From Promethearchaeota archaeon Loki_b32 (GTDB taxonomy: Archaea; Asgardarchaeota; Lokiarchaeia; Sigyniarchaeales; SOKP01): DNA of 32,968 nt. A program made the translations under genes and the position numbers. The DNA is taken from the NCBI GenBank assembly GCA_005223125.1, contig NJBH01000039.1, forward strand, positions 1 through 32,968, in the 5' to 3' direction. The first letter of the stretch is position 1; each line of letters opens with the position of its first letter. The notes under the pieces are model-generated. The model was not told where the DNA came from. It saw only the letters and a list, made by a program, of their open reading frames with translations, and ran no database searches. This document shows positions 11,271 through 32,968 of the stretch, piece after piece.

Positions 11271-12530
11271 TTAACCAATTTTTTTAAATCCAGTATATTT
11301 CTGAAGCACCTTAGGTACTTCTATGCTTCCGTCTTTTTGCTGATAATTCTCAATAATAGCAATTATTGTTCTTCCAATAGCTACAGCAGTACCGTTTAAA
11401 GTATGAACAAAATTCAATTTATTTGATTTGTCCTTATAACGGATATTTAATCTTCTGGCCTGAAAATCAGTGCAATTAGAAGTAGAATGAGTTTCTCGAT
11501 AACGCTTCTGAGATGGAATCCAAACCTCAATATCATATTTTGAAGCTGCTGGATCACCTAAATCACCTGTGCACATCTGAACAACCCTGTAAGGAAGTTT
11601 TAATGCCTGCATAAATTTCTCTTCTAAAGATAGCAGATACTGATGCTCTTTAACAGATTCTTCAGGCCTACAGAACATAAACATTTCTACTTTATCAAAC
11701 TGATGAACCCTGAAAATTCCTTTAGTATCCTTACCATAAGAACCAGCTTCTCTTCTAAAGCATGGTGAAAAAGCAACGTATCTTTTAGGTAATTCTTTAT
11801 CATTAAAAGTTTCATTGGCATGCATTGGACCAATAATCTGCTCTGAGGTGCCAATCAAATAAAGCTTGTCTTTTTCAATATGATAAATCTCATCACCCCC
11901 TCTTTCAACATAACCCATGCCTTTCATCATTTCTGGCCTTATTAAAACAGGAGGAATAACAGGAGTGAATTTTTCTTTTTTTAATTCATCAAGCAAAAAA
12001 TTGACCATTGCAAGTTCTAAAAAAACAGCTTCATTTTTTAAAAAACCAAACCTAGTGCCAGATGTTTTAGCAGCACGCTTAACATCAATTAAATCAAGTT
12101 TTTCAGCAATCTCTAAATAATCCTTGAATTTAAAATCAAACTTAGTTTTTTTACCAACCTCTTTTACAACTACATTTTCTGATTCATCTTTTCCAACAGG
12201 AATATCATCAAAAGCAGGATTAGGAACCTGAAGCATTAACTCATTAAACTCTTTTTCAAGCTCTTTTAAGTTTTCATCTAATTTATCATTATTCCTATCA
12301 AGCTTTCTCATTTCCAGTATTATCTTTTCTTTTTCCTTCTTATCTTTTGTTCTAACTATGTCTTTTGAGGCCTTGTTCTTTTTAGCCTTCATATCCTCTA
12401 AGGCCTGTAAAAGTTCTATTCTTTTTTTATCCACTTTCAAAAGTTTGTCAATATCAACTTTAACCTGTTTATCTTTACAGGCTTTTTTTACTTTATCAGG
12501 ATTTTGACGAATAAATTTAATATCTAGCAT
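11271..12530 (-). CDS. serS: seryl-tRNA synthetase
   Basis: This 419-residue protein has the normal SerRS length and plan. It begins MLDIKFIRQNPDKV and continues into a long antiparallel coiled coil (about 25-110) that holds the extra arm of tRNA-Ser. The class II core follows, with FRREAGSYGKDTKGIFRVHQF (motif 2, positions around 260-280), QMCTGDLGDPAASKYDIE and NGTAVAIGRT (motif 3). It charges tRNA-Ser and tRNA-Sec with serine in the cytoplasm. It lies 1 base from lysS and 8 bases from the hydrolase gene, in the same row as the peptidoglycan genes. Confidence 0.96.
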   Translation of the reverse strand: MLDIKFIRQNPDKVKKACKDKQVKVDIDKLLKVDKKRIELLQALEDMKAKKNKASKDIVRTKDKKEKEKIILEMRKLDRNNDKLDENLKELEKEFNELMLQVPNPAFDDIPVGKDESENVVVKEVGKKTKFDFKFKDYLEIAEKLDLIDVKRAAKTSGTRFGFLKNEAVFLELAMVNFLLDELKKEKFTPVIPPVLIRPEMMKGMGYVERGGDEIYHIEKDKLYLIGTSEQIIGPMHANETFNDKELPKRYVAFSPCFRREAGSYGKDTKGIFRVHQFDKVEMFMFCRPEESVKEHQYLLSLEEKFMQALKLPYRVVQMCTGDLGDPAASKYDIEVWIPSQKRYRETHSTSNCTDFQARRLNIRYKDKSNKLNFVHTLNGTAVAIGRTIIAIIENYQQKDGSIEVPKVLQKYTGFKKIG

Positions 12531-12531
12531 A

Positions 12532-17101: not shown

Positions 17102-17149
17102 TAATTCATCTTATAACAAAACACATCTTAAAGTAAAACTTATTCAATC

Positions 17150-17704: not shown

Positions 17705-18020
17705 CTGTCAATTTTTCTTCTGTTACCAGAAGGTTCGGACTATATCTTCACCCTTCTAAATCGATTAAAGAAGGGGCTGGCGTATTAGCTCTCATCTAAA
17801 TCAAGATTTTACAATCTTGTCAGAGAACTCCGATCTATATAGATCAAGTCTCTACGAGGTTATAACTCAATTTATCTCTACTATCAATATCGATTCTTGG
17901 AATTGAGTTAAACTTCCCACGGTATTGTCCACATATAAGGTTCAATATATATGGAGTTCACCGTTATAAGCCAGATTTTTTATATGGCATTACTGCCATA
18001 GCACCCCGATTTTTAAATTA
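17705..18020 (-). ncRNA. group I intron without ORF in 23S (near E. coli position 2500)
   Basis: Deleting these 316 bases restores an unbroken 23S sequence in the peptidyl-transferase region. The 5' exon ends in T and pairs as GCACCT with the intron's GGGGTGC, giving the U-G pair at the 5' splice site. The intron ends in G. A core segment GAAGATATAGTCCG (P7 region) is visible near the 3' end, together with AATACGCCAGC, shared with the other intron. There is no frame of note inside. Confidence 0.9.
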
Positions 18021-18559
18021 AGGTGCCGAACAGGGCCGTTGATATGGACTCGCGGGCCCTACTAGCCTGTTATCCCTAGGGTAACTTTTATCTGATGATC
18101 TCCGGCGGTCCTACAAACCACCGTCGGTTCACTAAGCCCCGGTTTCCCGACAGTTCGCGACATTCTGCTCACTGTAAAGCTGGCATATGGCTTTGCCCTA
18201 AACGTACGATTTCCATCCGTACTTAGCCAACCTTTGGACGCCTCCGCTACTTTTTAGGAGGCAAGTGCCCCACTTAAACTGCCCGCCAGACACTGTCTCG
18301 CGTAAAACGCGATTAGAATCAAAGTTTTGAAAGAAGGGTGTTTCATTGGCGACTCCATCCTGTCCGAAAACAGGATTTCAAAGTCTACCCTCTACGCTAC
18401 GCATCCAAAACAAAAACTCAATATCAGGGTACAGTAAAGCTCCTAGGGTCTTTTCGTCTAGCCGCAGGTAGGGGGCATCTTCACCCCCATTGTATTTTCA
18501 CCGGGCTCCTCGTTGAGACAGTTCTCTAGTCGTTGAGCCTTTCATGCGGGCCGGAACTT

Positions 18560-19275
18560 CATTTTGTTAACTTTAATTTTCATTAAAGATCAGACTATAC
18601 CTTCATCTTGTCATAAATCTTAGGAGTTGTTGTTTAGTATATTTCCTTTTTCCACTAGGATTCATCTGATAAGCCTTGTCAATAATTCCTCGCAAATAAT
18701 CAAAATTCAAATGATGTTTCTGATATACTTGCTTACATATTTCAGTAAAAAGAAGAAAGTCTTTCTTTTTGCTGGTTTGTAATGGAAATTTCTGAAAATG
18801 AGGAATGATTTTTTTAATCAAATCATCAATTTTTCTAACTTCATACTTGTAATTATGGTCGCGACTAGAAAATCTAATCCCTCCACAATTAAAGTAATCA
18901 CGAATAGATTCCAGAATTTCCCTATTACGTTTATGTTGAGAAATTGAGAAACTAGGTCTTACTTCGATTTTGGTTTTAAGCTTTGCACGGAAGTTAAATG
19001 AAACTGAGAAAGTTCCTTCTCCATCCGTAAAGCCTGTAATATATGAACTAAACTCCATAATTTATTTTTTCTTAACAAGAGCTGGCGTATTGCCCAGTTT
19101 TAAAAAACCGAGCCTCTTCTTTCGAATCAGTCGTTACAGGTCCTTATTTATAAAATAAGGTTCCCTCGGTATTAGCATATTCTTTTGTGTTGAAAGAACT
19201 TAGCCTTCACCGATATTAGCCAGTTTACTAACAAAGTGTTGCCACTATGTTCGGGCAAGTTGTCCGACAACATTT
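18560..19275 (-). mobile_element. group I intron with LAGLIDADG gene in 23S (near E. coli position 1951)
   Basis: These 716 bases interrupt the highly conserved GTCGGGT/AAGTTCC. TCGGGT of the 5' exon pairs with GCCCGA inside the intron, with a U-G at the splice site, and the intron ends in G. The core block GAAGGTATAGTCTG lies near the 3' end, and AATACGCCAGC is shared with the intron at 17705-18020, so the two are related. The homing endonuclease gene fills most of the intron. Position 1951 is a known group I insertion site in bacterial 23S genes. Confidence 0.92.
18603..19058 (-). CDS. LAGLIDADG homing endonuclease (intron-encoded)
   Basis: This 151-residue protein has a single LAGLIDADG motif, YITGFTDGEGTF (residues 6-17), with Glu14 in the position of the catalytic acid. 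Single-motif enzymes act as homodimers and cut the intronless allele, so that the intron is copied into it. The second half (KKIIPHFQKFPL, TSKKKDFLLF, GIIDKAYQMN) follows the pattern of 23S-intron enzymes. The TGA stop lies inside the intron's conserved core (AGATGAAGGTATAGTC), so gene and ribozyme overlap. The frame is intact, so recent activity is possible. Confidence 0.93.
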   Translation of the reverse strand: MEFSSYITGFTDGEGTFSVSFNFRAKLKTKIEVRPSFSISQHKRNREILESIRDYFNCGGIRFSSRDHNYKYEVRKIDDLIKKIIPHFQKFPLQTSKKKDFLLFTEICKQVYQKHHLNFDYLRGIIDKAYQMNPSGKRKYTKQQLLRFMTR

Positions 19276-20735
19276 ACCCGACAAGGGATTACGCTACTTT
19301 AACACGGTTATAGTTACCGCGGACGTTCACCGGAGGCTTAACTCACTTAGCTATTCCATCCGAAGACGAAACAACCGATAAGCTTAACACTCCGGCACTG
19401 GTCAGGCCTCAGCCCCTATACATCCTCTTACGAGTTTAGCAGGGACCTGTGTTTTAGATAAACAGTCGCCAGAGAGACTTTCGCTGCGGCCACATTGCTG
19501 TGGCAAGGCATATTGCGAACGTACGCCTGCTTGTTTGCCGAGTTCCTTAACGAGGTTTCACCCGTTCACCTTAGTACACTTACACTCGCCCACCTGTGTT
19601 GGTTTGCGGTACGGATCCAACATTTTTAACTCTACGAGTTTTTCCAGGTAGCCTGCTCATCCGAATTTATTTTGCCGTAGCAAAACATCTTGTCGACTCT
19701 TGATAATTCTTAAGCAAACAACAAGAATCCAATAACTTGCCCGGATTACTAAACTACGTCACTCTTCGAAAAAATGCTGAAGGGTCGGAATATTAACCGA
19801 CTGTCCATCAGTTACGCCTTTCGGCTTCACCTTAGGACCGCCTAACCCTTGGTTGATTGTCATTGCCAAGGAAACCTTGGGCTTACGGTGTCAAGGAATC
19901 TCACCTTGATTGCGGTTACTCATACCAACATTCTCACTTCTTAGCGCTCCATCAAACCTTACAGTTTGACTTCAGTGCACTAAGAACGCTCCCCTACCAC
20001 GCATTAATAAATTAATGCATCCTTATCTTCGGTACTGAACTTTAGTCCCGTAAATTTTCGGCGCAGAATTCCTTAGCTAGTAAGCTATTACGCACTTTTT
20101 AAAGGGTAGCTGCTTCTAAGCTCACCTCCTAGCTATCCATGGAATTCCACCTCCTTTCTCACTTAGTTCTCAGTCTTGCGACTGATCTGTTAAAAACAGA
20201 AGATTTAGGGACCTTAGATTAAGGTCTGGGTTGTTTCCCTCTTGACTTCGGACATTAGCGCCCAAAGTCTTACTCTAGTGATTGCGAAATTGATATTCGG
20301 AGTTTGGTAGAAATACCTACCTTGCGGCACGATATCTCTTCCAGTGCTCTACCTTCAACTTCTACTCATCTAGGCTAGCCCCAGAGCTATTTCGGGGAGA
20401 ACCAGCTATTACCAGGTTCGATTAGGGTTTCCCAACTTACCACAACTCATCCCAGAGTTTTGCACTACCCACGGGTTCGGGCCTCCTCCATCTTTTCAGA
20501 TGGATTCACCCTGGTCATGGCAAGCTCACCTGGTTTCGGGTCTCGCACACTCCCTTATAAACGCGCTATTCACACTTGGTTTCCCTATGTCTCCATCCCA
20601 GAAGGACTTAGACAAGAAAGTGCACGAACTCGTTGGTGCCTGCTCCAAAAGGTACGCCGTCACTGCGAAAAACGCAGCTCCGACTTTTTGTTAGCAAATG
20701 GTTTCAGGTTCTATTTCACTGGGATCACCTCCCTG

Positions 20736-20774
<39 letters not shown>

Positions 20775-21051
20775 GAGATTGAGTATTTAGCCTTGGCTAG
20801 TAGTTTAGCCTGTTTCCCACAGAGGTTTCATCCCCGAGTGGTACTCAAGAAGAACATCAAGGAGCATAAAGAGGTTTTCAAGTACAGGACTATTACCTTC
20901 TACGGTATTCCTTTCCAGGAAATTTCCTTTAACCAATCTTTATTTTTTAATCTCCTTCGGGTTGCCCCGACGACGTTCCCTTACAACCCTCCATACAAAA
21001 GTATGAAGTTTGGGCTCCTCCCTCTTCGCTCGCCGCTACTAAGGGAATGTT

Positions 21052-21116
21052 ACTACTAATATTCACTAATTTCTGCGAATCAGATTCGTAAAAATTAGTG
21101 ATAAATTATTAGTAGT
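21052..21116 (-). other. extended hairpin insert in 23S domain I (IVS-like)
   Basis: ACTACTAAT (21052-21060) pairs with ATTAGTAGT (21108-21116), followed inward by CACTAATTT/AAATTAGTG and GCGAAT/ATTCGT. Together they form a long, A+T-rich stem where most bacteria have a short helix (around E. coli 250-275). It could be a stable expansion or an intervening sequence removed by RNase III. It is distinct from the group I introns. Confidence 0.6.
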
Positions 21117-21347
21117 TCTTTTTTTCTTTTCCTCCGCTTACTAAGATGTTTCAATTCAGCGGGTTTACTATCCTGTTATAAAAACAGGATTGAATCGTTT
21201 TATCAACGAAACAGGTTTCCCCATTCGGAAATCCCCGGATCAAAGGTTGGTAGACACCTCCCCGAGGCTTATCGCAGCCACCCCACGTCCTTCATCGCCT
21301 CAATCTCCCAAGGCATCCGCCATTTGCCGTTGAGTAATCTTGCCCTC

Positions 21348-21372
21348 AAAAATTTCACAAAACGAAATTTTT
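21348..21372 (-). other. hairpin just upstream of the 23S 5' end
   Basis: AAAAATTTC (21348-21356) and GAAATTTTT (21364-21372) form a 9-base stem with a 7-base loop directly before helix 1 of the 23S. It may serve in processing of the precursor. The gap 21373-21478 must also hold the 23S promoter if the hairpin at 21479-21504 terminates transcription; no convincing -35/-10 pair was found there (TTATAC on the minus strand is a candidate -10). Confidence 0.4.
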
Positions 21373-21478
21373 ATAAAATACTAAAGTGTATAATTTGGTG
21401 TTTTTAATTAATTTGGCTAGATTAAAATTTTACTTTTCCATATTAAGTTGTACAGTGCTTTCTATCCCTTTCAAACTT

Positions 21479-21504
21479 AAAAACCGCCTTCTGAAAGCGG
21501 TTTT
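21479..21504. terminator. bidirectional terminator between the channel gene and 23S
   Basis: The stem AAAACCGC (21480-21487)/GCGGTTTT (21497-21504) is flanked by T-runs in both readings. On the minus strand it separates the 23S gene from genes upstream. It indicates that the 23S-5S unit has its own promoter. Confidence 0.7.
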
Positions 21505-21599
21505 GTTTGTAAACAAAAATTAAGAAGTTACCGCTTCCAAAAATTATATTTTTTTCTTTGCATTATTCTCATTATGTTTTTATTCTAACAAAGTAAAAA

Positions 21600-21627
21600 G
21601 GGGTGTCAAGCTAAAAGAAAACACCCC
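21600..21627 (-). terminator. rho-independent terminator of the MscS-like gene
   Basis: GGGGTGT (21600-21606) pairs with ACACCCC (21621-21627). Read on the minus strand it is followed by five T. It lies about 45 bases after the stop of the gene at 21673-22353. Confidence 0.8.
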
Positions 21628-21672
21628 AAACTCAGGACACTGAATCTGGAGTGTTTCAATATATAGCAAAAT

Positions 21673-22353
21673 TTACCTTTCTGAGATTTTTTCTTTAACG
21701 TCAGCGATAAACTTAGCAGCAGCTTCTTTACCACCCAAGCCGAAAGACAATCCAAAAGCCAGTGTTATCATTCCTACAAAACCTTTAATTAAAGTATCAA
21801 TTATGGTCGGAGTAACTCCTAACTGAAGTAAAATTGCCAAACCTGCAAAAACATATATTGACCATCTGATTGCTACGCCTAAAAATCCAGCATAATCAAC
21901 TCCCATCTTCTTGACGCTAGCCTTGATAACTTTTTCTAAAATGTCTGTAATGATAATTGTTGCAACAAAAATAGCTGAGGCGACAATTAAATTAGGTAGC
22001 CAGGTTACGACTTTTTTTAAGAAGTCTGCAAACTGAACAAAACCCAAAATTTCAATTGAAGCTAGCAAAAATACAATAACTAAAATCCATTTTGCAATTG
22101 CTCCAATAAATTCAGATGGATTAACTTTTAATTCTGCTTTTTGTAATGCTTCTCTCCATCCAGCTCTTTCAAAAATTTTGTTAAATCTTATTTGCTTTAA
22201 AATTTCAGCTATTAATTTTCCTAAACCAATAGCTAGAAACCAGCCAATAATCAATACAACAAGCGCACCAATTAATCTTGGCAGAAACATTAGAAATCCT
22301 GCCCAGGCACTTTGTAGTGCCTCAAGTGTAATAATAGACCAATCTTGAACCAT
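21673..22353 (-). CDS. MscS-like membrane protein, transmembrane part only
   Basis: This 226-residue protein has about five hydrophobic helices (near 20-42, 80-102, 116-140, 157-178 and 183-203). AFGLSFGLGGKEAAAKFI near the end matches the glycine-rich pore helix of MscS-type channels (the conserved TM-helix repeat). The beta domain that follows the pore helix in MscS is absent; the protein ends 20 residues later in a charged helix. It may be a small channel or a CmpX-like membrane protein that responds to membrane tension. It is a single gene with its own terminator, between the tRNA pair and the 23S gene. Confidence 0.75.
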   Translation of the reverse strand: MVQDWSIITLEALQSAWAGFLMFLPRLIGALVVLIIGWFLAIGLGKLIAEILKQIRFNKIFERAGWREALQKAELKVNPSEFIGAIAKWILVIVFLLASIEILGFVQFADFLKKVVTWLPNLIVASAIFVATIIITDILEKVIKASVKKMGVDYAGFLGVAIRWSIYVFAGLAILLQLGVTPTIIDTLIKGFVGMITLAFGLSFGLGGKEAAAKFIADVKEKISER

Positions 22354-22404
22354 CGTAGTAAGAGATATTTACTAATTAGATTACCGACCTTTTTAAAAGA
22401 TATT

Positions 22405-22416
22405 GATATATTATAG
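22405..22416 (+). promoter_or_regulatory. extended -10 promoter before the CYTH gene
   Basis: TGATATATTATAG at 22404-22416 contains an extended -10 (TG-N-TATATT). It lies about 95 bases before the chosen start at 22511. No -35 box is evident. Confidence 0.4.
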
Positions 22417-22510
22417 CATTATGTCAAAAAAGCCCCTGTGGAAAACTTTTTGCTCAATTTTCATTGACTTTTTGCATATTTTACAGCATTATAAAGAAGT
22501 TAAAAACACT

Positions 22511-23083
22511 ATGAAAAAAACAGAAATAGAAATACAAGTTAATATTGAAAACAAAAAACCCTTAATGGAGTTTTTAAAAAACAATGCTGAATTTAAATCA
22601 GAAAACCAGCAAATTGATGAATATTTTTCTCCAATTCATCGTAATTTTATTGAAGTCAGGCCTGTAAAAGAATGGTTTAGATTAAGAGATTCGGAAAAAG
22701 ATTATTCAATAAATTACAAAAACTGGCACATTGATGATAAAGGAAGAAGTATTTATTGTGATGAATATGAAACCAAGATAGAAAATCTGGACACAGTCAA
22801 AGAAATGTTGAAAATTCTTAACTTTAAAACCATAGCCAAGGTTAAAAAGACAAGGAAAACCTGGAATTACAAGGATTATGAAATAAATATAGATTCAGTT
22901 GAAAATCTTGGTGATTTTGTAGAAATTGAATATATTGGCAAAGAAAATGTAAATCCAGAAGAAATTATCAGCCAAATGGTAGATTTTCTTAAAAGCTTAG
23001 ACTGTGGAACAATAAAAAGGAATTATAGAGGATATCCTTTTCAATTATTATTCCCAAATGAAGTTGAATACGAAGAATTATAA
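22511..23083 (+). CDS. CYTH domain protein (class IV adenylate cyclase / CyaB-like)
   Basis: This 190-residue protein begins MKKTEIEIQV, the CYTH signature E-x-E-x-K except that Gln replaces Lys. It continues with strands carrying alternating charged residues (EWFRLRDSEKDYSINYK, DEYETKIENLD, TRKTWNYKDYEINID, DFVEIEYIG) that line the triphosphate tunnel. CYTH enzymes act on triphosphates: cAMP synthesis, thiamine triphosphate or polyphosphate hydrolysis. The substrate cannot be told here. An upstream in-frame stretch to 22403 is not homologous and was left out. It is the only plus-strand gene in the right two thirds and meets the tRNAs at a shared terminator. Confidence 0.82.
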   Translation: MKKTEIEIQVNIENKKPLMEFLKNNAEFKSENQQIDEYFSPIHRNFIEVRPVKEWFRLRDSEKDYSINYKNWHIDDKGRSIYCDEYETKIENLDTVKEMLKILNFKTIAKVKKTRKTWNYKDYEINIDSVENLGDFVEIEYIGKENVNPEEIISQMVDFLKSLDCGTIKRNYRGYPFQLLFPNEVEYEEL

Positions 23084-23105
23084 ATTATTTCAATAGGACA
23101 AAACA

Positions 23106-23135
23106 AAAAGATAGGACACGATCGTCCTATCTTTT
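23106..23135. terminator. bidirectional rho-independent terminator
   Basis: AAAAGATAGGAC and GTCCTATCTTTT form a perfect 12-base stem with a 6-base loop. It lies 22 bases after the CYTH stop and 6 bases after tRNA-Ala, so it serves both convergent transcripts. Confidence 0.88.
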
Positions 23136-23141
23136 AGTTGT

Positions 23142-23218
23142 TGGTGGACCTGAGCGGACTCGAACCGCTGACCTCCACTATGCAAAAGTGGCGTTCTAGC
23201 CAACTGAACTACAGGCCC
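23142..23218 (-). tRNA. tRNA-Ala (anticodon TGC)
   Basis: The 77-base cloverleaf has acceptor GGGCCTG/CAGGTCC with the alanine identity pair G3-U70, anticodon stem CCACT/AGTGG with loop TTTGCAT (anticodon at 23182-23184), T-arm GCGG/CCGC with TTCGAGT, discriminator A and an encoded CCA. tRNA-Ile precedes it by 4 bases. Confidence 0.97.
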
Positions 23219-23222
23219 AATG

Positions 23223-23294
23223 TGGGCGCGGAAGGAATCGAACCTTCCACCTCTTCTTTATCAGAGAAGCGTTCTACCAATGAACTACGCGCCC
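23223..23294 (-). tRNA. tRNA-Ile (anticodon GAT)
   Basis: The cloverleaf has acceptor GGGCGCG/CGCGCCC, D-arm GTTC/GAAC, anticodon stem CTTCT/AGAAG with loop CTGATAA, T-arm GAAGG/CCTTC and discriminator A. CCA is not encoded (CAT follows), unlike tRNA-Ala next to it. The Ile-Ala order is that of a classical 16S-23S spacer. The first ten bases are shared with the end of the methyltransferase gene. Confidence 0.96.
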
Positions 23295-23860
23295 AAAACC
23301 TCTAAGACAAATAATTTCTTTTTAACTGGTTCAAAATTCAAAGAAACATATTTATCATGAACTAATTTAAGATCCAAACTCTTAAAAACCTCAAGCCATT
23401 CATCCTCTGTTTTAAATGTCGTCTTATCTTTATTACCAAAAAATTTGTCAAATGAAAAGCTATGAAAATAACAGATAAATTTAGACAAAAAATCTTCTGG
23501 CAAGTCCTCATAAATAAAAATCCTGTGTTTTGCAATTCTTTTTGCTTCTTTTAACAATGCGATTGGATCCTGGCTGTGATGAAGGGTATAAGCGATTAAA
23601 ACATTGTCGAAACTGTTGTCAGGAAAGTTTATTCTTTTACCATCAATCAAGCTAAATGCTATTGGGAAAATCCTTCTGTCTATTACATCAACCCCAATAA
23701 CTTCTGTATCAAAGAAACTCTGGAAAGTATTAGCAACTATTGCAGAACCACATCCAATATCAAGAATTTTAGATTTATTCTTAATAAACTCTTCACACTC
23801 CAAACACATTTTGTGAGCTGATTTTTGGTAAAGTTTTTGAAAAATACGGTAAAATTTCAT
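23285..23860 (-). CDS. class I SAM-dependent methyltransferase
   Basis: This 191-residue protein has motif I ILDIGCGSAIVANTF (about 34-48), the acidic end of strand 2 in VIGVDV, and DNVLIAYTLHHSQDP (motif IV region), as in the Methyltransf_11 family. The substrate cannot be told. The reading frame has no stop of its own: the TAG comes from bases 8-10 of tRNA-Ile, so gene and tRNA overlap by 10 bases. It is preceded by the terminator of the surface operon at 23972-23997. Confidence 0.85.
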   Translation of the reverse strand: MKFYRIFQKLYQKSAHKMCLECEEFIKNKSKILDIGCGSAIVANTFQSFFDTEVIGVDVIDRRIFPIAFSLIDGKRINFPDNSFDNVLIAYTLHHSQDPIALLKEAKRIAKHRIFIYEDLPEDFLSKFICYFHSFSFDKFFGNKDKTTFKTEDEWLEVFKSLDLKLVHDKYVSLNFEPVKKKLFVLEVLGA

Positions 23861-23971
23861 TGATTCTTTCTGGTTTTGGCAAAAATTCCTGTTATTAAAG
23901 GCGTTCGACTAAGCAACCTAGCATATATTAACTTTAGGTTAAATTTTATTATTTGACAAGATTTTTTACCT

Positions 23972-23997
23972 AAAACACGCCTAAATAGGCGTATTTT
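23972..23997 (-). terminator. terminator of the surface-protein operon
   Basis: AAAACACGCC and GGCGTATTTT form a stem with one C-A mismatch and a 6-base loop. It lies about 35 bases after the stop of the last surface gene, with T-rich sequence following on the minus strand. Confidence 0.6.
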
Positions 23998-24030
23998 ACA
24001 CATTCAGCTTGATTTATTTTCCCTAAACAA

Positions 24031-25788
24031 CTATTCTTCTAGTTCTTTTTCAATGTCTTTAATCTCTTTATCAATAGTTTCTTGAGTTGAATCAAGAGCT
24101 TCCTGTAATTTACCCTGAATTTCTTTTTCTCTTTTGCTTAAACCCTTTCTATCATCAAGATATTCTATTTGCTCTTCAATTTTTTTCTTTAAAACCTGGA
24201 AAGCCTTTTCAACACTTTTCTCTGCTTCTTTAGTTTCTCTCTTTACTCGTTTTTGCCAAAGAGTAAGCTGATTCCGAGCATAAAACATAATTCCAATTAA
24301 AGATATTATTAGAACAACTAATGTAAACATAATACTTAGATAATCAATTGCTATTTTACCAATTTTTAAAAAAGGAGAGGAGCCGACCCAAAAATTAACC
24401 TCCTCAGATGGTAAACTTAAAGCTCCCCGTTCATCTTTAGCTCGAGCCCAAGCTTTATAGTCTCCTTTTTTTAAAAACAAAGAGGTGAAAGTCCAATTAC
24501 CATTTTCATCAACATTAACCTGGCTTATTATTGGCTCTTTGCCAAATAATTCCAAATAAAGCCTAACTGTTACATCTGGAAAAGCTGTTCCTTCTATAAT
24601 TAGGCTTTCATCTGGTTTTAAGCTAGTTGGAGCTTTGGTGATTACAGGCGATTCAATAGAAGATATTTCTATTTCTACTGAATCTGATCTGAAATTACCT
24701 GCTCTGTCAAATGCTATAACTTCAACAAAATATTTACCTGGAAGTTGAGATGGCATATGGTAAGGCAGATCTTTATATTCTATTGTTGCCAGCAGTTTAC
24801 CATTTGATATAACTTCATAATGCTTTATACCTGAAAGAGAATCGCTGGTACTAAAATACAAAACAGGGCGAGGGCTAGTATCATCTCCATCATTATCAAC
24901 TTGTATTGTAAAAGATTTTGGAGCTTCGGTATCAACTAAAACTCTACGATGCGAAATCTGACCCCAGCCATATTCGTTTTTAAATCTAATATGAAAATAC
25001 CATTCACCATCTGCAATTTCTTCAATTTTCTTCTCTCTAATTAAAGATGTGTCTTCAGATGTATATTCAAACGTTGGATAAGAATTAGGATTATTGTTAA
25101 GCAATAATTTAATTGCAGTAATATCGCTTGGCAATTCCCATGAAAATCCTGGATCATTATTTGAATACCATTGATTAACATCAGGATGGGTTAAAGAGCT
25201 AACAATTGGGGCAGCAGGCGCTCCAATCGTTGGCGGCAAATCATATGTTTCTTCATCGTCCCCTGCACTTAAAACATAGGTTCCGCCGCTCATGCTTTCT
25301 AAAATATTTGTTCCTATGCCATCAGACGCCAAAATAAAACCAGAAACAAAATCTACTTTGGATATTGCGCTTGCTTTTGGTCTAAAATTAATGGTTATAA
25401 TAAGTCCCGATCTTCCAATAAAATCATTGGTCGCTCCTCCGCCAAAATTTATACTTCCTGCAGTATTGGAGAAAACAGGTTCAGTAGTCCAAAGATTAAA
25501 AATTGAACCGCTTTTTGAAATGCTAATTACCTGAAGTTCATCTGGATTAAAAGTCAAAACCCCTTCAGCAGCATTAATAACCATATCTGAACTATTTACT
25601 TTCACTGCAACAGAAAAAACATTACCAACCTGATATGTGCTGTCTCCAGGAGATAAATACAAAGAAACTGAATACGCTTTAACTGTTGCAGGTAAAATTC
25701 CAAAAGCTATTAATAAACCACCAAACAATGCAATTCTTTTAAAAGAAGACAAATTGATTTTATTTCTTTTGCAATATTTGATGGCCAC
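24031..25788 (-). CDS. membrane-anchored surface protein with N-terminal cohesin-like domain
   Basis: This 585-residue protein starts at GTG. A signal peptide (about 18-38) leads to a cohesin-like domain (about 40-175): SLYLSPGDSTYQVGNVFSVAV, a strand with EGVLTFNPDELQVISI, and SINFGGGATNDFIGRSGLIITINF. Immunoglobulin-like or carbohydrate-protein type beta repeats follow (about 190-470), then one membrane helix (about 481-505). The cytoplasmic tail of 78 residues is a charged coiled coil (SVEKAFQVLKKKIEEQIEYL and further). Cohesins bind dockerins, and a dockerin protein is encoded two genes upstream. It is the last gene of the row and follows its cohesin-bearing neighbour by 12 bases. The cohesin call is by pattern and needs a profile match. 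Confidence 0.75.
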   Translation of the reverse strand: MAIKYCKRNKINLSSFKRIALFGGLLIAFGILPATVKAYSVSLYLSPGDSTYQVGNVFSVAVKVNSSDMVINAAEGVLTFNPDELQVISISKSGSIFNLWTTEPVFSNTAGSINFGGGATNDFIGRSGLIITINFRPKASAISKVDFVSGFILASDGIGTNILESMSGGTYVLSAGDDEETYDLPPTIGAPAAPIVSSLTHPDVNQWYSNNDPGFSWELPSDITAIKLLLNNNPNSYPTFEYTSEDTSLIREKKIEEIADGEWYFHIRFKNEYGWGQISHRRVLVDTEAPKSFTIQVDNDGDDTSPRPVLYFSTSDSLSGIKHYEVISNGKLLATIEYKDLPYHMPSQLPGKYFVEVIAFDRAGNFRSDSVEIEISSIESPVITKAPTSLKPDESLIIEGTAFPDVTVRLYLELFGKEPIISQVNVDENGNWTFTSLFLKKGDYKAWARAKDERGALSLPSEEVNFWVGSSPFLKIGKIAIDYLSIMFTLVVLIISLIGIMFYARNQLTLWQKRVKRETKEAEKSVEKAFQVLKKKIEEQIEYLDDRKGLSKREKEIQGKLQEALDSTQETIDKEIKDIEKELEE

Positions 25789-25800
25789 AATTCTTGTATT

Positions 25801-26730
25801 TTAATTTTGGATATTTCTTTTTTTAATATTTTTCAAAATCCACCAGAATATTATGACACAAAGTATAAGGAAAATTGCCAAAAAAGTGAGCTGCCTTCTC
25901 AAAGGAGTATATTCTATAATTACTTGATTATCAGCTTGGTCAACTGCTTTTACTTTTATAATGCTTTGCAAGTTTTGATCTTTCAGCAAATACGGGCTTT
26001 GCGCAATTATCCACTCCCCTTTTCCTTCCTTAACTTCATAATAATCAATTCCTGTCTGTTTGTCAGCAGTAGAAAATACAATGAAGTATTTATTTTCAAA
26101 CATTTCAGGATTTTTATTAATTTCAACTTCAAATAATTCTGGAGGCACTAAATCTGTTTCAATTTGTTCTTGCCATTCGTTTTTAAAATCTTCTGATTGT
26201 CCAACTAAAAGAGTGAAAGAAGCATCTTTAAATTCAAGCTCTCCAGAAGCGCCAAAACCATCATTAAGCAAAACTCTTGAATTTTCTAAAAATTTAACAT
26301 TAGCAATGCTTGTTTGGAACAATTCTTTTACTTTAAATACTAATTTTCCAATCAAATTACTTTCACTCAGGTCTCCTGGCACTATTCCGCAATAACCGCC
26401 TGGAATTCCTCCAGCAAAAGAAATTGTTGCAGTTTCCTGGGAAATTAAAGGAGAGGAAACCCAAAGAGATAAAATAGAATTAGCTTTACTGAAATCAACT
26501 ATTTCTAAAACATCTTGAGAAAAAGATATGTCAGCTTCCACTATATTAATACATTCATCTTGTATATTTATTCTTGCTTCTACTATAAAAACATCTCCTT
26601 CATGATAAATATTATTTGCCGAAGAAAAATAAAGAACTGCTCCAAAGGCAGCTGATGGCAAACCAAAAAGAATAAAAAGTAAAAGCAAATAATAATTTTT
26701 AATTTTAAATTGTAAATTTATCTTTTTCAT
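25801..26730 (-). CDS. second membrane-anchored cohesin-like surface protein
   Basis: This 309-residue protein has a signal peptide (about 10-30) and then a cohesin-like domain (about 31-175): VLYFSSANNIYHEGDVFIVEARI, EADISFSQDVLEIVDFSKA, TISFAGGIPGGY and LIGKLVFKVK. The same order of strands appears in the 585-residue neighbour, so they are paralogues in this part. A short beta domain (VPPELFEVEINKNPEMF...IIKVKAVDQADN) and one membrane helix (about 281-300) with a basic tail finish the protein. It is placed between the dockerin gene (13 bases) and the other cohesin gene (12 bases). Likely role: a surface receptor for the dockerin protein. Confidence 0.75.
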   Translation of the reverse strand: MKKINLQFKIKNYYLLLLFILFGLPSAAFGAVLYFSSANNIYHEGDVFIVEARINIQDECINIVEADISFSQDVLEIVDFSKANSILSLWVSSPLISQETATISFAGGIPGGYCGIVPGDLSESNLIGKLVFKVKELFQTSIANVKFLENSRVLLNDGFGASGELEFKDASFTLLVGQSEDFKNEWQEQIETDLVPPELFEVEINKNPEMFENKYFIVFSTADKQTGIDYYEVKEGKGEWIIAQSPYLLKDQNLQSIIKVKAVDQADNQVIIEYTPLRRQLTFLAIFLILCVIIFWWILKNIKKRNIQN

Positions 26731-26743
26731 TTTAATTTAATTA

Positions 26744-27835
26744 TTATCCTGTCCAGTGATATAGCATAATTGAAAAATCTGGCAAATCTACTACATCATT
26801 CCCGTTTTGGTCAGCGCAGATATTGTATTTGCCGAACCAATAAAGCAAAATTGAAAAATCAATTAAATTTACCCTTCCATCTTTATTCAAATCAGCATAA
26901 AGGCAGAATAGATCCAAATCGTCAATGTCCCTATCTTCTCCTACATAAAAACTTAGAATTTGACCAAAACCACTTTTTTCCTCAGGAGTAATCTGAGATT
27001 GCGCTTTAATAACATGAGAACCATCTTCTAAAACAATTGTATCAAAAGGTAAAAGCCAAGCACCAATATTATCAGAGACAACAGTTTCAATATGCTCTGT
27101 AGAAAAAACATGCACTTTTACTTCTATTTCTGGCACAGTTTGACCAAAAATATTTAAAATCTCTCCTTTATTTAAACTTGTTTTATTAAGTCCAATGGTT
27201 GAGGGTAAAAAAATACCAGAAACAGTGGTAATGGTGTTTGCATTCACTCGAAAGGTTAAAGTATAAGTAATTGACTTTATATTATTTTTATCTTTTGCCC
27301 AAACACTAAAACTCCAAATACCAGCAGTAATGTCTGTAATTTCTGCTTTAAAATCTGCTTTAGAATCACTCTTAACTGTTTTTATTAATTTTCCATCCAT
27401 TAAAATACTCATATCAGAAAAAGGATAAGCTTTCCCCATAAGAACAACTTTGGTTGGAACAGGGGGAAGATAAGTTCCTCCTCCTCCACCGCCTCCACTA
27501 ATCACAGGTTCACTTTGACAACTTGAATCACATCCATCTCCAGAACTGGTATTTCCATCATCGCACTCTTCTCCATGTTCAGATTGAACAATTCCATCTC
27601 CACAACGAATTCCAAGCCCACTACAGTCAGCTTTACAATAACCATACTGGCCATTATCAACACCATGATCACAAACTTCTTCTATCTCAAGAATGCCATT
27701 TCCACATACTCCTAAGATTTTAGCGCCAACTAAAACTCCGCCTTGAGCTTGAGCGGAGTTAAAATAAAAAACTAATGAAAAAAATATGTAGCTAAAAACT
27801 AATATAATTAAAGATAAATTGAGCAATTTCTTCAT
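26744..27835 (-). CDS. secreted protein with Cys-rich repeats and C-terminal type I dockerin
   Basis: This 363-residue protein has a signal peptide (1-30, ending AQA). Cys-rich DUF4215-like repeats follow (about 43-107: CGNGILEIEEVCDHG, CGDGIVQSEHGEECDDGN, GDGCDSSC), then a Gly-rich linker (114-120) and two beta domains (130-300). At the C-terminus is a type I dockerin with two EF-hand-like calcium loops, DLNKDGRVNLID (315-326) and DQNGNDVVDLPD (342-353), each followed by the helix FSILLYWFG/FSIMLYHW. It has no membrane anchor, so it would be held by docking on the cohesin-like proteins encoded directly downstream. The dockerin is clear; the partner is inferred. Confidence 0.88.
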   Translation of the reverse strand: MKKLLNLSLIILVFSYIFFSLVFYFNSAQAQGGVLVGAKILGVCGNGILEIEEVCDHGVDNGQYGYCKADCSGLGIRCGDGIVQSEHGEECDDGNTSSGDGCDSSCQSEPVISGGGGGGGTYLPPVPTKVVLMGKAYPFSDMSILMDGKLIKTVKSDSKADFKAEITDITAGIWSFSVWAKDKNNIKSITYTLTFRVNANTITTVSGIFLPSTIGLNKTSLNKGEILNIFGQTVPEIEVKVHVFSTEHIETVVSDNIGAWLLPFDTIVLEDGSHVIKAQSQITPEEKSGFGQILSFYVGEDRDIDDLDLFCLYADLNKDGRVNLIDFSILLYWFGKYNICADQNGNDVVDLPDFSIMLYHWTG

Positions 27836-27838
27836 TTT

Positions 27839-28885
27839 TCATTCTTCTGCATTATTACTTCTTCTTGCTTGTTCTTTTTGTTTTTTTATTCTTGTTGATT
27901 TTCTTGGAATTCTCTCTTCACTTACTCCAGCTTTTGCTATTATCCAGTCATTATAACGTTTAATTCCTTGAAAAATAATAAATAATAACGTTATTACAAT
28001 CAAAGAATTTAATAACATTAACCTCCAGGGAAAAATCCAAAAATTTAAACTATCTTGAGCGCTTTTTCCTTCTTTCCCAAATTCTATATCTAAAACAGCA
28101 CTATAATAACCAAAACCAAAGCTATTTCTTTCTTTTTTTAATTTTCCAAAAAAACCCTGCGCATCTGCTTCGTCAACAGGGTTTTCTGCACTTAACGTAA
28201 TAGAATAAGCTCTTTCAGCTCCTGGCAATGCATAATATTTATTTGGATTAGCTGAAAAAACAGATATTTCACTACCAAAAATATTTTTAATTGTTATTTT
28301 TCCTTCAGGTTTTAAATGTACACTTCCATCATTTTTTAAAATATAACTAAAATTAATTGGAAAATAATTGAAAACTTTTTTATTCGTCTGAAAGTTCTTA
28401 ATCTGCCCATCTTCAATCACATCCCCTGAAACATTAAGCAAAACTAATATTGCTATTCTGTTGCTAATTCCAACGCTGCCAGTGCCAGATCCTTCTGAAG
28501 GAGAAGTTCCCCAGAAAATAGCTGCATAATTACCGCCTGCATTTGCATTTTCAGGAACTGTGATAGTAAAAGAGGTTCTTTTTCGCTCTCCTGGGCTTAA
28601 ATGCACTTCCAAGGGGGAAGCTTCAATCCATGAAGCCAACCCTGCTACTTCTCCAGTAAAAACTGGGTCTCCCCAGCTTCCTTGTGTTTCAACGCTTTCA
28701 AAAGAAGGATAATAAGTTGCTTCACGGCTCTCAGTATTAATTAAAGTAATTGTTCCAGAAATTACATCTCCTGGATTAGCTGAGTATTCAACTTTTGCCG
28801 GAGAAACAGTTAAGGCGTGAGAACTTGAGACAAAAATACTGCAACCCAATACAATAAAGATTATAAAAATAAGTGGTTTTTTCAT
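27839..28885 (-). CDS. DUF916-like membrane-anchored surface protein
   Basis: ATG at 28885 is chosen because a signal peptide follows at once (KKPLIFIIFIVLGCSIFVSSSHA); a TTG nine codons earlier is possible but unlikely. Two immunoglobulin-like domains (about 25-260 of the product) include LTVSPAKVEYSANPGDVISG, LEVHLSPGERKRTSFTITVP and GNYAAIFWG. One membrane helix (about 300-320) and a Lys/Arg-rich tail follow. The plan matches the DUF916/WxL-associated proteins of Firmicutes, which hold partner proteins on the cell wall. It starts the group of anchored proteins, 3 bases before the dockerin gene and 71 bases after the 205-residue protein gene. Confidence 0.7.
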   Translation of the reverse strand: MKKPLIFIIFIVLGCSIFVSSSHALTVSPAKVEYSANPGDVISGTITLINTESREATYYPSFESVETQGSWGDPVFTGEVAGLASWIEASPLEVHLSPGERKRTSFTITVPENANAGGNYAAIFWGTSPSEGSGTGSVGISNRIAILVLLNVSGDVIEDGQIKNFQTNKKVFNYFPINFSYILKNDGSVHLKPEGKITIKNIFGSEISVFSANPNKYYALPGAERAYSITLSAENPVDEADAQGFFGKLKKERNSFGFGYYSAVLDIEFGKEGKSAQDSLNFWIFPWRLMLLNSLIVITLLFIIFQGIKRYNDWIIAKAGVSEERIPRKSTRIKKQKEQARRSNNAEE

Positions 28886-28955
28886 TTCATTTAAATTAAA
28901 TAGCCAAGTCAATATAAAATCAACATGGAGCTAAATAATTTTTTCAAAAATCACC

Positions 28956-29573
28956 CTAAAGAGTATTAGAACAAGTATAAGTAATTATATCTGAATAACT
29001 ACCAGCTAAGTTTGAATCACTAACTGCTGCCTTATAATACATAATAACTCTTGCATTAGTTACACTACCTGTACTTGAAGCCATATTTAAATCAGTAATT
29101 TCAAATCCACCAACATCATTAGTTGTTGATGCATTATCATATCTGACAGCTATTGTCATAGCAGTTCCAAAATCAGTACTTGTAGCCTGCATACCATAAC
29201 CTTCTGTTTCTGCTGCTAAAGTAGCTGTATTTCCAGAAGCTGCATCAGCTGAACCAATTAAATCAGTAGCCCCAGCAGAATTATATAATCCTGGATCTGT
29301 AGTATCTCCATCATCCTGAACTTTAACAACAGCAACATCACTACTATTAACATTAATTGTGGTACTGCCAAAAGCAGTTGAAACTGCAGCTGTAGTTAAC
29401 TCTCCAAAACTAGCAGTGGTAGTGCTGAAATCACAAGTAATATCCGATGCTATTGTTGCTGAAACAGTAACGTCAGCACTCTTAGTCACATCTAAATTAG
29501 ATGACAATGAAATAATTAAAGCTAAACTTAATACTGCAATAAAAAATAAATCTTTTCTCTTTATTATTATCAT
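28956..29573 (-). CDS. exported single-domain surface protein, paralogue of the next
   Basis: This 205-residue protein has a signal peptide (about 8-32) and a single Ser/Thr/Ala/Gly-rich beta domain. It is framed by a Cys near its start (ITCDFSTTTASFGELTT) and one near its end (SYSDIITYTCS), which could form a disulfide. The rest has many short strands (KVQDDGDTTDPGLY, GYGMQATST, VGGFEITD). There is no membrane helix or LPXTG-like signal. I do not recognise a named family; ending and context beside a DUF916-like gene recall WxL proteins. The same domain forms the C-terminal half of the protein encoded at 29691-30794. Confidence 0.65.
   Translation of the reverse strand: MIIIKRKDLFFIAVLSLALIISLSSNLDVTKSADVTVSATIASDITCDFSTTTASFGELTTAAVSTAFGSTTINVNSSDVAVVKVQDDGDTTDPGLYNSAGATDLIGSADAASGNTATLAAETEGYGMQATSTDFGTAMTIAVRYDNASTTNDVGGFEITDLNMASSTGSVTNARVIMYYKAAVSDSNLAGSYSDIITYTCSNTL
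29391..29435 (+). repeat. 45-base segment repeated exactly at 30132-30176
   Basis: This is the most conserved part of the duplicated domain in the two neighbouring surface genes. The two copies are identical over 45 bases and similar over about 470. That points to a recent duplication or to gene conversion. Confidence 0.9.
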
Positions 29574-29690
29574 TCTTAATTCTATTTTAATTTCCTATCT
29601 TTAAATAAATTGAAAAACGACCTTTCTTTTTTTAATGTTATCTAATCAATTTACCATAATAAGCTAAACTTTAAAATTGTGGAAAACTTC

Positions 29691-30794
29691 TTATTCGCTC
29701 ATTGAACAAGTATAAGTAATTGTGTCTGAATAACTGCCCATTACGTTTGATGCATTAATTGCTGCTTTATAATACATAATAACTCGCCTATTGGTCACTG
29801 CGCCCGTAGTAGAAGCCATAGTAACGTCAGTAATTTCAAAACCGCCAACAGTATTAGTTGTTGATGCATAATCATATCTTACAGCTATTGTAAATTCTGC
29901 ACCGCTTCCCTCATTAGTGCTTGTAGCCTGCATACCATAACCTTCTGTCCCTGCTTCCAAAGTAGCTGTATTTCCAGAAGCTTCATTAGCTGAACCAATT
30001 AAATCAGTTGTAGCACTGGACTTCCATAATCCTGGATCTACACCGTCTCCATCATCCTGAACTTTAATAAAAACAGTATCGGCACTTATAACATTAATAG
30101 TAGTACTGCCATAAGCAGTTGAAACTACACTTGTAGTTAACTCTCCAAAACTAGCAGTGGTAGTGCTGAAATCACAGGTTAAAGAAACACCAGCACTCAC
30201 GTCAAGGCTGGTAGTATCAAACCAGGCAATAGCTTGAGCGCTATTATTATTTCCTGATTTAAGGTCAAAATACCATCTGAACTTATAGGATCCAGTTTCG
30301 TCAAAAAAATCACTAACATCTAACTCGGATGGTCCTGTCCATGCCGTAGCTCCATCAACAAGGGGAAGAGATTCATCACATCTCCAAATCTCTACCCAAT
30401 CATCAGGCAAAGAAGGTCTAGTAATTTCGGCTTTAAGAATGTTAATCCCAGAAGCAGTTGAAACTACACTTCTTTTGCTCCATTGAAGACTTAATTTAAC
30501 CACGTCATCAAGATTAATCTCTGTCCCAATGCTCTGCCAGGCATATCCTTGCATAACAGATCCTTTTGCTACTCCAGTCACACCCTTTAAAGACCCAGCA
30601 GTACCTCCATGATAATAAGTGCCATCGTAGGCAATGGATCCTGCTCCTTGGACATCATACACTACCGTCCAACCAGTAATATCCCCAGTAAAAGTGGGGT
30701 TGTTTAAATACTCGGCAGGATTAGCTTTCGCCACGAAGGCTATGGTCAGAACCACCAGAAGTATTAAAAAAAGACGGAAAGTAGATTTCTGCAT
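29691..30794 (-). CDS. exported protein: jelly-roll-like domain plus the repeated surface domain
   Basis: This 367-residue protein has a signal peptide (1-24) and then a domain of about 180 residues. Its start, PAEYLNNPTFTGDITGWTVV, and later KLSLQWSKR, SYKFRWYFDLKSG and AIAWFDTTSLDV resemble the jelly-roll carbohydrate-binding (CBM4/9-like) or discoidin-like modules. The C-terminal half (about 205-367) repeats the Cys-framed domain of the 205-residue neighbour, with the same LTCDFSTTTASFGELTT start and ITYTCS end. It has no anchor. It may bind glycans on a host or on the cell's own surface. The gene lies 3 bases after the spermidine-synthase-like gene. Confidence 0.65.
   Translation of the reverse strand: MQKSTFRLFLILLVVLTIAFVAKANPAEYLNNPTFTGDITGWTVVYDVQGAGSIAYDGTYYHGGTAGSLKGVTGVAKGSVMQGYAWQSIGTEINLDDVVKLSLQWSKRSVVSTASGINILKAEITRPSLPDDWVEIWRCDESLPLVDGATAWTGPSELDVSDFFDETGSYKFRWYFDLKSGNNNSAQAIAWFDTTSLDVSAGVSLTCDFSTTTASFGELTTSVVSTAYGSTTINVISADTVFIKVQDDGDGVDPGLWKSSATTDLIGSANEASGNTATLEAGTEGYGMQATSTNEGSGAEFTIAVRYDYASTTNTVGGFEITDVTMASTTGAVTNRRVIMYYKAAINASNVMGSYSDTITYTCSMSE
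30132..30176 (+). repeat. second copy of the 45-base repeat
   Basis: Identical to 29391-29435. The two surface genes share this domain. Confidence 0.9.
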
Positions 30795-30797
30795 AGT

Positions 30798-32492
30798 TTA
30801 AAATAAGTAAAGATCATTAAGAGTAATAAATTTCATGGTCAGCAAAGATCTTGGAGCCAAAAATTCAATGATCGGTTTGTCGTCAGTATTAAACCTTTTT
30901 TCATTTTGAACAAAACTTTGAACCTGCAAGTCTCCCATAACCATTAAAAAAAGGAAGTCTTCTGCAGAGTTTATACCCATTCCACCTAGATTTTTCTTTA
31001 TTATTTCTTTGCTTGCCATTTTATTTTTTATTTGTTCTCTGTCTATTTCTATTGGTTCAAATGAACCCAGCAAAAACGTTTCCACGCTACGATTAGGGTT
31101 TTCATTGAGTGCTTTTATGTCATCTATCCACAAAGAAATATTAGGAAAAACAGAATTAAAAGTATTAACCAAAATTTTATGTTCTTCTGGAGAAAATCTA
31201 TGGCCAGGAATCCATTGCAAGAACATTCCGTCCTTATTTAAATGTTCCTTAACCAGCTCAAAAAACTCTTTGGTAAAAAGATGTGAAACTCCAGTAGAAA
31301 CCGGATGAGATGGGGCAGAGATTATCACATCGTATTTTTCTTTTGTAGTTAAAAGATAATTTCTGCCATCAATAACAAAAACCTCAACCCTTGGATCTTT
31401 TAAAATATCATTATTAAATTCTGAAAAATATTTACTGCTCACGTCAACAATAATTGGATCAATTTCTATTGCATCCATTTTTTGAACATCAAAATTCCCT
31501 ATTGCTCCTAGGGTAAATCCTGCTCCCATTCCTATATTTAAAACTTTTTCTGGACTGTGATGCAACAACATAGGAATATAGGCCTGAATAAGCTGATGAC
31601 GCATGTCGTCTGGAAAAGTACTGGCTTCGCCATGACCATCAGATTTTAAACCTAGCCCGGTTTCAGTTTGGGCAACCACTACTGTAGAATAAGGCCCTTC
31701 TTTATAAAAAATAGGTTTTATGGCTGACAGTTCATCTTGAACCTGGTCCCAACTTTCATAAGTTCCCATAAACCACGAATTCAACAAAATTGGGGGCAAA
31801 GAGGTATAAAAACCCAAAACTAAAAAAATTAAAACAATTGGAAGAAGAAATTTGATTTCACTCCGAAAAGTGCTAAATCGAAACATTATTAAAGCCAAAA
31901 GAATATTTATTGTAGCAGCGACCATTACAGTTTTTGTTAATCCAATCAAAGGAATAAGAATAAACCCAGCTAGAAATGGTCCCAAAACTGAACCCAAAGA
32001 ATTAGCAGAATATACATAACTAATGTCTTCCCCTATTTTTTTTAAGTCTCTAGTGAAAATTTTACTCACCACTGGAAAAATTGCTCCCATCATTGTAGTA
32101 GGAATTAACAAAATTAAGAAATAAAATAAAAATTGGGCAAAGAGAAATGGCCAAAAATAGCTATGTAATAATTGATAAAGCCAAAAATAAGGAAACTGGA
32201 CATAGGGTAAAAGAATAATAAACATGATTCCATAAATTCCAATCCCTAATTCAAGCAAACCAAAATATTTTGCTAAATCTTTGAGTTTATCAACCCTCCG
32301 CCCCATTAAATAACTTCCTAAAGCAAGGCCAGCCATAAAAGCGCAAAGCATGGTAGCAACTGCATAGACGGTTGAACCAAAAATTAAAGAAAGTAGTCTT
32401 GACCAAGCTACCTCATAAATCAAGGCAGACATGCCCGAAAGACCAAAGGCAATAAGAGCTGTATTTCTTAATGTAAAAAGTTTCTTCAACAT
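30798..32492 (-). CDS. membrane protein with spermidine-synthase-like domain
   Basis: This 564-residue protein has an N-terminal half of about seven to eight membrane helices with GMSALIYEVAWSRLLSLIFG and FMAGLALGSYLMGR. The C-terminal half is a spermidine-synthase-like Rossmann domain: VLNIGMGAGFTLG, DAIEIDPIIVDVS, DGRNYL and GVSHLFTKEFFE. True spermidine synthases have D-S-(S/T)-D-P at the end of strand 4; here the segment reads ISAPSHP, so the catalytic Asp is missing. It belongs with the widespread membrane-fused relatives whose substrate is unknown, not with SpeE. It is the first gene of the surface operon, just after the 16S gene and its terminator. Confidence 0.85.
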   Translation of the reverse strand: MLKKLFTLRNTALIAFGLSGMSALIYEVAWSRLLSLIFGSTVYAVATMLCAFMAGLALGSYLMGRRVDKLKDLAKYFGLLELGIGIYGIMFIILLPYVQFPYFWLYQLLHSYFWPFLFAQFLFYFLILLIPTTMMGAIFPVVSKIFTRDLKKIGEDISYVYSANSLGSVLGPFLAGFILIPLIGLTKTVMVAATINILLALIMFRFSTFRSEIKFLLPIVLIFLVLGFYTSLPPILLNSWFMGTYESWDQVQDELSAIKPIFYKEGPYSTVVVAQTETGLGLKSDGHGEASTFPDDMRHQLIQAYIPMLLHHSPEKVLNIGMGAGFTLGAIGNFDVQKMDAIEIDPIIVDVSSKYFSEFNNDILKDPRVEVFVIDGRNYLLTTKEKYDVIISAPSHPVSTGVSHLFTKEFFELVKEHLNKDGMFLQWIPGHRFSPEEHKILVNTFNSVFPNISLWIDDIKALNENPNRSVETFLLGSFEPIEIDREQIKNKMASKEIIKKNLGGMGINSAEDFLFLMVMGDLQVQSFVQNEKRFNTDDKPIIEFLAPRSLLTMKFITLNDLYLF

Positions 32493-32603
32493 CTTATGTA
32501 AATTTTATCAAATTTCAGCAAAGAAAAATAGAGAGAATTAAAATATATCTTTATTTTCTCCATTCTAGTATTTTACCAAAAATAAAAAAATACTTAAACA
32601 GAC

Positions 32604-32630
32604 AAAAGCGCAAATTAAAATTGCGCTTTT
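32604..32630. terminator. terminator after 16S rRNA
   Basis: AAAAGCGCAA (32604-32613) pairs perfectly with TTGCGCTTTT (32621-32630). It lies about 115 bases after the 16S 3' end. T-rich sequence follows on both sides. It separates the 16S transcript from the protein operon. Confidence 0.75.
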
Positions 32631-32745
32631 TTTTGTTTTAGTTTCTTAGAGCTGTCCCGAATAATCGATCTTTTAGGAACTTCGATCAACTCCCCAAAAG
32701 TTAAAATCCAAATTTCAGACTTCAACCTTTATCAACCAAAATTTA

Positions 32746-32968
32746 AAATGTAGTGATCCACGGACAGCTTCCGCTACCCGTGCCTTGTTACAACTTCGCC
32801 CCTCTTACTGAACCCAGCTTAGGCCACATTAAATGCGGACTTCGGCTATTCTCAGCTCGCTTGGCGTGATGGGCGGTGAGTACAAGGCCCAGGGACGTAT
32901 TCATCGCGACATCGCTGATTCGCGATTACTAGCGATTCCAGCTTCATGAGGTCGAGTTGCAGACCTCA
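32746..32968 (-). rRNA. rrs: 16S ribosomal RNA, 3' end (cut by window edge), anti-SD replaced
   Basis: The minus strand carries the conserved 16S 3' minor domain: GAGGTCTGCAACTCGACC-type blocks, ATGAATACGTCCCTGGGCC, CGCCCATCACGCC, GTTGTAACAAGG and a fully paired helix 45 (ten base pairs around a GGAA tetraloop). GGATCAC follows. After that the usual CTCCTT is missing: positions 32749-32753 read CTACA on the rRNA strand, then TTTT. The gene continues beyond the right edge. It is not linked to the 23S gene. Confidence 0.97.

Follow-up and report, generated by a model that had tools for sequence, protein, structure and literature searches.

Within the CPR, absence of the anti-Shine-Dalgarno (anti-SD) core CCUCC together with scarce Shine-Dalgarno (SD) motifs is described, in PMC10783764, for Candidatus Wolfebacteria, Campbellbacteria, Absconditabacteria and Peribacter riflensis. 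The same combination is reported in PMC6107228 from Flavobacteriia (Chryseobacterium, Riemerella), Mycoplasma, Carsonella and Hodgkinia (128 taxids; Lim et al. 2012 cited there). In Flavobacterium johnsoniae and other Bacteroidetes (PMC6847099; Jha et al. 2021 cited in PMC9723584), initiation is SD-independent and the anti-SD is kept occluded by bS21.

The window analyzed here is a single contig of 32,968 nucleotides, on which CTACA replaces CCTCC at 32753-32749 of the minus strand in an otherwise healthy 16S rRNA. The order to which we assign it resembles the CPR lineages of PMC10783764 in that helix 45 is not followed by CCUCC and SD motifs are not in excess. It differs from them in that the whole order is concerned, with tens of tail variants and a U(-1) preference described here, and in that relatives in the class that keep CCTCC are also without a clear SD excess. 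The main text of PMC10783764 does not name this order of Wildermuthbacteria/Nealsonbacteria-type genomes. By its tail, its relatives and the small number of genes with pairing, the lineage of the window belongs to class iv of that study (no anti-SD, no SD). Flavobacteriia, Mycoplasma, Carsonella and Hodgkinia likewise combine a lost CCUCC with absent SD motifs but are unrelated to the present order, and the losses are independent. The state of F. johnsoniae and other Bacteroidetes, in which SD is disused and missing from the mRNA, resembles that of the class relatives keeping CCTCC. Unlike those Bacteroidetes, the present order has lost CCTCC, and in most of its sampled genomes bS21 goes undetected. 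An occluded anti-SD of the Bacteroidetes type is ruled out, CCUCC being absent from the 16S rRNA of the window and bS21 matched in 10 of 32 order genomes. In a limited collection of literature, the order-wide extent, the intermediates, the G-free tail, the U(-1) preference and the lack of a clear SD excess in keepers of CCTCC were not found. Anti-SD loss is already known from other CPR lineages, and a broad new one is added here.

Origin of the contig

The window is the entire contig C68 of the bin G000, which comprises 4.13 Mb in 71 contigs. A search of the bin with RF00177 gave 0 matches despite the presence of two 16S 3′ ends, and a pattern search was therefore used. The other 16S 3′ end, on contig C48, has CCTCC, as do the close relatives of the bin. 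The seryl-tRNA synthetase (SerRS) of the window (Table 1) has its 90% match in G154, a 0.6-Mb genome from the same order as G060 (Wildermuthbacteria), and three blocks of the window, 10382-18559 (80%), 19310-23899 (93%) and 32627-32968 (96%), are colinear with G154:C10. On these two grounds the contig is a misbinned piece of Patescibacteria, and its source organism is placed by sequence in the Patescibacteria (CPR), in the order holding Wildermuthbacteria/Nealsonbacteria-type genomes. The sequence-only reading had suggested looking for further 16S copies and had named one with CCTCC as a refutation; the bin does hold a copy with CCTCC, but SerRS and synteny show that this copy is from a different organism, and it is consequently no argument against anti-SD loss. 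The only match to the SerRS N-domain in the bin lies on the Patescibacteria contig C68, so that the quality figures of the bin may be partly borrowed.

Several other genes of the contig deserve mention. In a 523-aa ORF at 1147-2718, a LexA-type repressor, complete with HTH and S24 peptidase, is fused with a C5-cytosine DNA methylase, and a Vsr endonuclease is encoded nearby at 3556-3945. A proteasome-subunit-like protein is found at 6481-7224, on what is a bacterial contig.

Structure of the 16S rRNA 3′ end

The RF00177 match extends to the last position of the model, and its mismatches in the tail are the anti-SD columns. The 5′ part of the gene is absent because the contig stops at 32968. 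The sequence-only reading had placed CTACA correctly and read its letters correctly, as judged from the sequence and the cmscan alignment (187.8 bits). It had also described helix 45 and the adjoining GGATCA as intact and base-paired, which holds for the helix, where all pairs form, whereas GATCA, the Era-recognition sequence of other bacteria (PMC10582724), is single-stranded. Its statement that the rRNA is not decayed agrees with the paired helix 45 and with the occurrence of the same tail in independent genomes. Two other genomes, G060 and G154, are identical to the window over 48 bases at the 16S 3′ end, and the flanking DNA at 32502-32968 is about 86% identical to G158. The flank is kept in G154, so the sequence runs on naturally beyond the tail. 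Since the flanks match both G154 (96%) and G158, neither an intron nor an assembly join lies just after GGATCAC, possibilities that had been raised earlier.

Table 1. Sequence features of the window bearing on its placement and on the 16S rRNA 3′ end
Feature	Position	Strand	Evidence
Seryl-tRNA synthetase, placement marker	11271..12530	-	90% identical to G154:C10
Terminator-like hairpin and T run, ~115 bases 3′ of the 16S end	32603..32632	-	Sequence; predicted fold
16S 3′ flank, conserved in G154	32627..32745	-	Comparison with G154 (96% over 32627-32968)
TTTTA, remainder of the A/T-rich, G-free tail	32744..32748	-	Sequence
CTACA at the position of the anti-SD core (CCTCC)	32749..32753	-	Sequence, cmscan; same in G060 and G154; common to L033-L037
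GATCA, conserved, single-stranded	32754..32758	-	Sequence, cmscan
Helix 45 hairpin CACGGGTAGC-GGAA-GCTGTCCGTG, intact	32759..32782	-	cmscan alignment, 0 broken pairs; predicted fold
16S rRNA, 3′ portion	32746..32968	-	cmscan against RF00177, 187.8 bits, model 1299-1533

The rRNA operon of the contig is split, with about 8.7 kb of protein genes (23899-32627) between the 16S gene and the block of tRNA-Ile, tRNA-Ala, 23S and 5S. These genes encode cohesin- and dockerin-like surface proteins and a spermidine-synthase-like membrane protein. The same gap between 16S and tRNA is only about 0.5 kb in G154, and G158 has a homologue of the dockerin gene about 3.3 kb after its 16S gene. The 23S rRNA gene carries at least two insertions (18560-19273 and 17716-18030). 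One insert contains a LAGLIDADG endonuclease ORF (18603-19058) and is absent in G098; the 23S gene also has a group I intron match.

Distribution of anti-SD loss

When 84,980 species genomes were scanned for GGATCACTACA behind helix 45, five loci were returned (L033-L037), two from Wildermuthbacteria, two from Nealsonbacteria and one from a further MAG, all in genomes of 0.6-0.8 Mb. A survey of the 16S 3′ ends of relatives, whose comparison had been proposed earlier, revealed the same loss across the order, the 3′ end being recovered in 130 of the 247 genomes of the order of G060. Among these 130, CCTCC occurs only in G217:C43 and G236:C33, where helix 45 differs strongly in type and resembles that of the host bin. 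G217 also has a second, native-looking 16S copy with TATAT, and both CCTCC copies look like contaminants. After collapsing the order's tails to 90 rows, CCTCC directly following GGATCA is found in none, CCTCA in three and TCTCC in one. Over the same rows, mean GC at the five anti-SD core positions is 0.21 and G is nearly absent from the ten tail positions; the tails are A/T-rich and variable, and apparently kept G-free. GATCA is itself drifting, with T retained in 87% and C in 89% of distinct tails. Judged from these sequences, the whole order shares the loss. Among 384 sampled genomes from the class, whose other orders are mixed, CCTCC and non-CCTCC tails are both common across many helix-45 backgrounds, which suggests several, probably repeated, losses of CCTCC.

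Shine-Dalgarno use and start-codon context

In ORFs of at least 100 codons the first ATG was taken as the start, a procedure that dilutes start signals, and the SD 4-mers GGAG, GAGG and AGGA were counted at -20 to -5. The comparison was with an upstream control interval, and E. coli served as positive control; these replaced dinucleotide shuffles of 16-base leaders, a null that had turned out to be too conservative. For E. coli, the same script finds SD 4-mers before 43% of genes, against 11% in the control interval. In the window they occur in 2 of 28 leaders against 0 of 28 controls, with 2.2 expected from shuffles of 27 leaders, and there is no enrichment. The earlier statement that about 30 starts lack any SD motif is therefore not literally right, although its conclusion stands. 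The window by itself has low power, with 28 genes from an organism known from one contig, and relatives add 928 genes. Extending the count beyond the window, seven genomes of the order have no SD excess, with 11.2% near the start and 12.9% in the control interval (928 genes). These counts support the proposal that the organism has abandoned SD-guided initiation. Seven class relatives keeping CCTCC also lack a clear SD excess, at 13.5% against 11.7% (761 genes); possible SD remnants are seen among such relatives in G511 and G341, and in G403 GGAGG occurs 9 times against 0.

A second signal lies immediately before the start codon. T is found at -1 in 53% of the 928 order genes, which are without anti-SD, against a background of about 30-31% at -30 to -6 (p ~1e-44), and in 54% of the 761 genes of class relatives keeping CCTCC. 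Before in-frame internal ATGs the value is 24-37%, and neither E. coli nor the contig native to the bin has a significant excess. Operon-internal and first genes show the preference with equal strength, and it is therefore not merely a signature of transcription start. A fourth pair, formed by U(-1) with A37 of the initiator tRNA, was reportedly proposed by Esposito et al. in 2003 (cited in PMC9841429 and PMC9229432). A function of U(-1) is here a correlation, and the preference has the same strength in relatives that keep CCTCC. The CCTCC-keeping class relatives comprise L138-L167 and L200-L218, which combine the T(-1) preference with no clear SD excess.

Partners of the anti-SD core

CCTCC has three partners, the mRNA SD, Era and bS21. 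Era binds GAUCA and CCUCC (PMC10582724), bS21 contacts the CCUCC region (PMC9723584), and Era is reported to be mostly missing in Paceibacteria, the class concerned (PMC12641178). Of the ribosomal factors that the sequence-only reading had proposed to check, IF3 is present in 24 of 24 genomes, and ORFs with S1 repeats, of about 360-460 codons, occur in nearly all of this set. Matches to bS21, a small protein sought in incomplete genomes and often undetected, amount to 31% in the order, 75% of 81 CCTCC genomes and 55% of 29 other non-CCTCC genomes, kinship being uncorrected. A strict coupling of anti-SD loss to bS21 loss was clean in 24 genomes and weakened in the larger set, and was rejected. 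With the partners of CCTCC weak or absent, its decay is expected.

Alternative explanations

An assembly error, a chimera, an intron or a decayed 16S pseudogene of the host bin might leave a tail of this kind, and both the CCTCC in the bin's own 16S and the truncation of the gene by the contig end would fit such an artefact. Helix 45 and every pair up to the tail are nevertheless intact, the identical tail recurs in independent genomes, the 3′ flank is conserved in G154 and G158, and the contig is colinear with one from Patescibacteria. We regard an artefact as scarcely credible; the loss of the anti-SD is confirmed as real and due to no assembly error or pseudogene. A different possibility is a shifted or altered anti-SD, in which the new tail would pair with a new complementary mRNA motif. 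It would fit the tail CTACATTTTA, which is identical or nearly so across genomes whose SerRS identity is only about 57%, and the avoidance of G, which points to some constraint. Duplex energies were calculated for leaders at -20 to -4 and for a control interval, paired either with the tail of the respective genome or with CCUCC. With the own tail, pairing near the start is no better than in the control interval in the window (p=0.89), G060 (p=0.12), G158 (p=1), G285 (p=1), G112 (p=0.81) or G252 (p=0.92), against a strong excess in E. coli (p=3e-10) and a weak one in C48, the contig native to the bin (p=0.006); with CCUCC, neither the window nor any tested relative shows stronger pairing close to the start. 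The commonest leader k-mers are general A/T-rich words. SD 4-mers, for which relatives supply 928 genes, and duplex energies thus indicate tail-leader pairing in few genes, and a new leader motif complementary to the tail is excluded at the available power. Class iii of PMC10783764 (an altered anti-SD that still pairs) is likewise rejected, leaders not being enriched in tail complements, and an altered anti-SD seems to us very improbable.

Translation could instead be mostly leaderless, as proposed for Nanoarchaeia, and this, rather than leadered non-SD initiation, might have caused the loss. A TANNNT box peaks at -12 in the window and several relatives, a spacing that fits a transcription start at the ATG, and at -13 to -11 it is found before 17.5% of first genes against 10.1%. 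The signal is modest, however, is present in a minority of genes and precedes some operon-internal genes too; tightly packed operon genes would need internal promoters to be leaderless, and T(-1) is no weaker within operons than in first genes. That most genes are initiated leaderless is accordingly unsupported, and mostly leaderless translation appears unlikely as the cause of the loss.

Proposed sequence of events

The reading we favor, with a probability of roughly 85%, is that this CPR contig encodes an anti-SD-less ribosome, that SD was disused first and CCTCC then decayed, and that initiation rests on the start codon. A ribosome without an anti-SD cannot use SD pairing to position mRNA. 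We infer the order of events from the class relatives that keep CCTCC without an SD excess, since these indicate that SD disuse is probably older than CCTCC decay. Once SD use had been given up, CCTCC, freed from SD pairing and, in this class, probably also from Era, could have decayed stepwise, from CCTCC through CCTCA to CTTCA, CTACA or TTTTT, and on to an A/T-rich tail still avoiding G. Initiation would then most likely be centered on the start codon itself, with A/T-rich unstructured leaders loaded with the help of an S1-type protein and the start selected by IF3 and the initiator tRNA, U at -1 being a possible fourth pair with A37; leaderless mRNAs may serve part of the genes. A bolder version, which we put forward tentatively and with the odds somewhat against it, holds that the class dropped SD early in favor of a start-codon-centered code with U(-1) as the fourth initiator-tRNA pair, and that the idle CCTCC decayed in one order, and repeatedly elsewhere, to a tail free of G that is retained solely as an unstructured 3′ end.

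Implications

The anti-SD is one of the best conserved segments of bacterial rRNA, and its loss was previously known from scattered lineages as an exception. The present order displays many steps of its decay (CCTCA, CTTCA, CTACA, TTTTT) beside sister orders in which CCTCC is kept without a clear SD excess, which makes the order of events testable. In these widespread bacteria, gene callers rewarding SD motifs can mislead, and so can 16S annotations that take CCTCC for granted.
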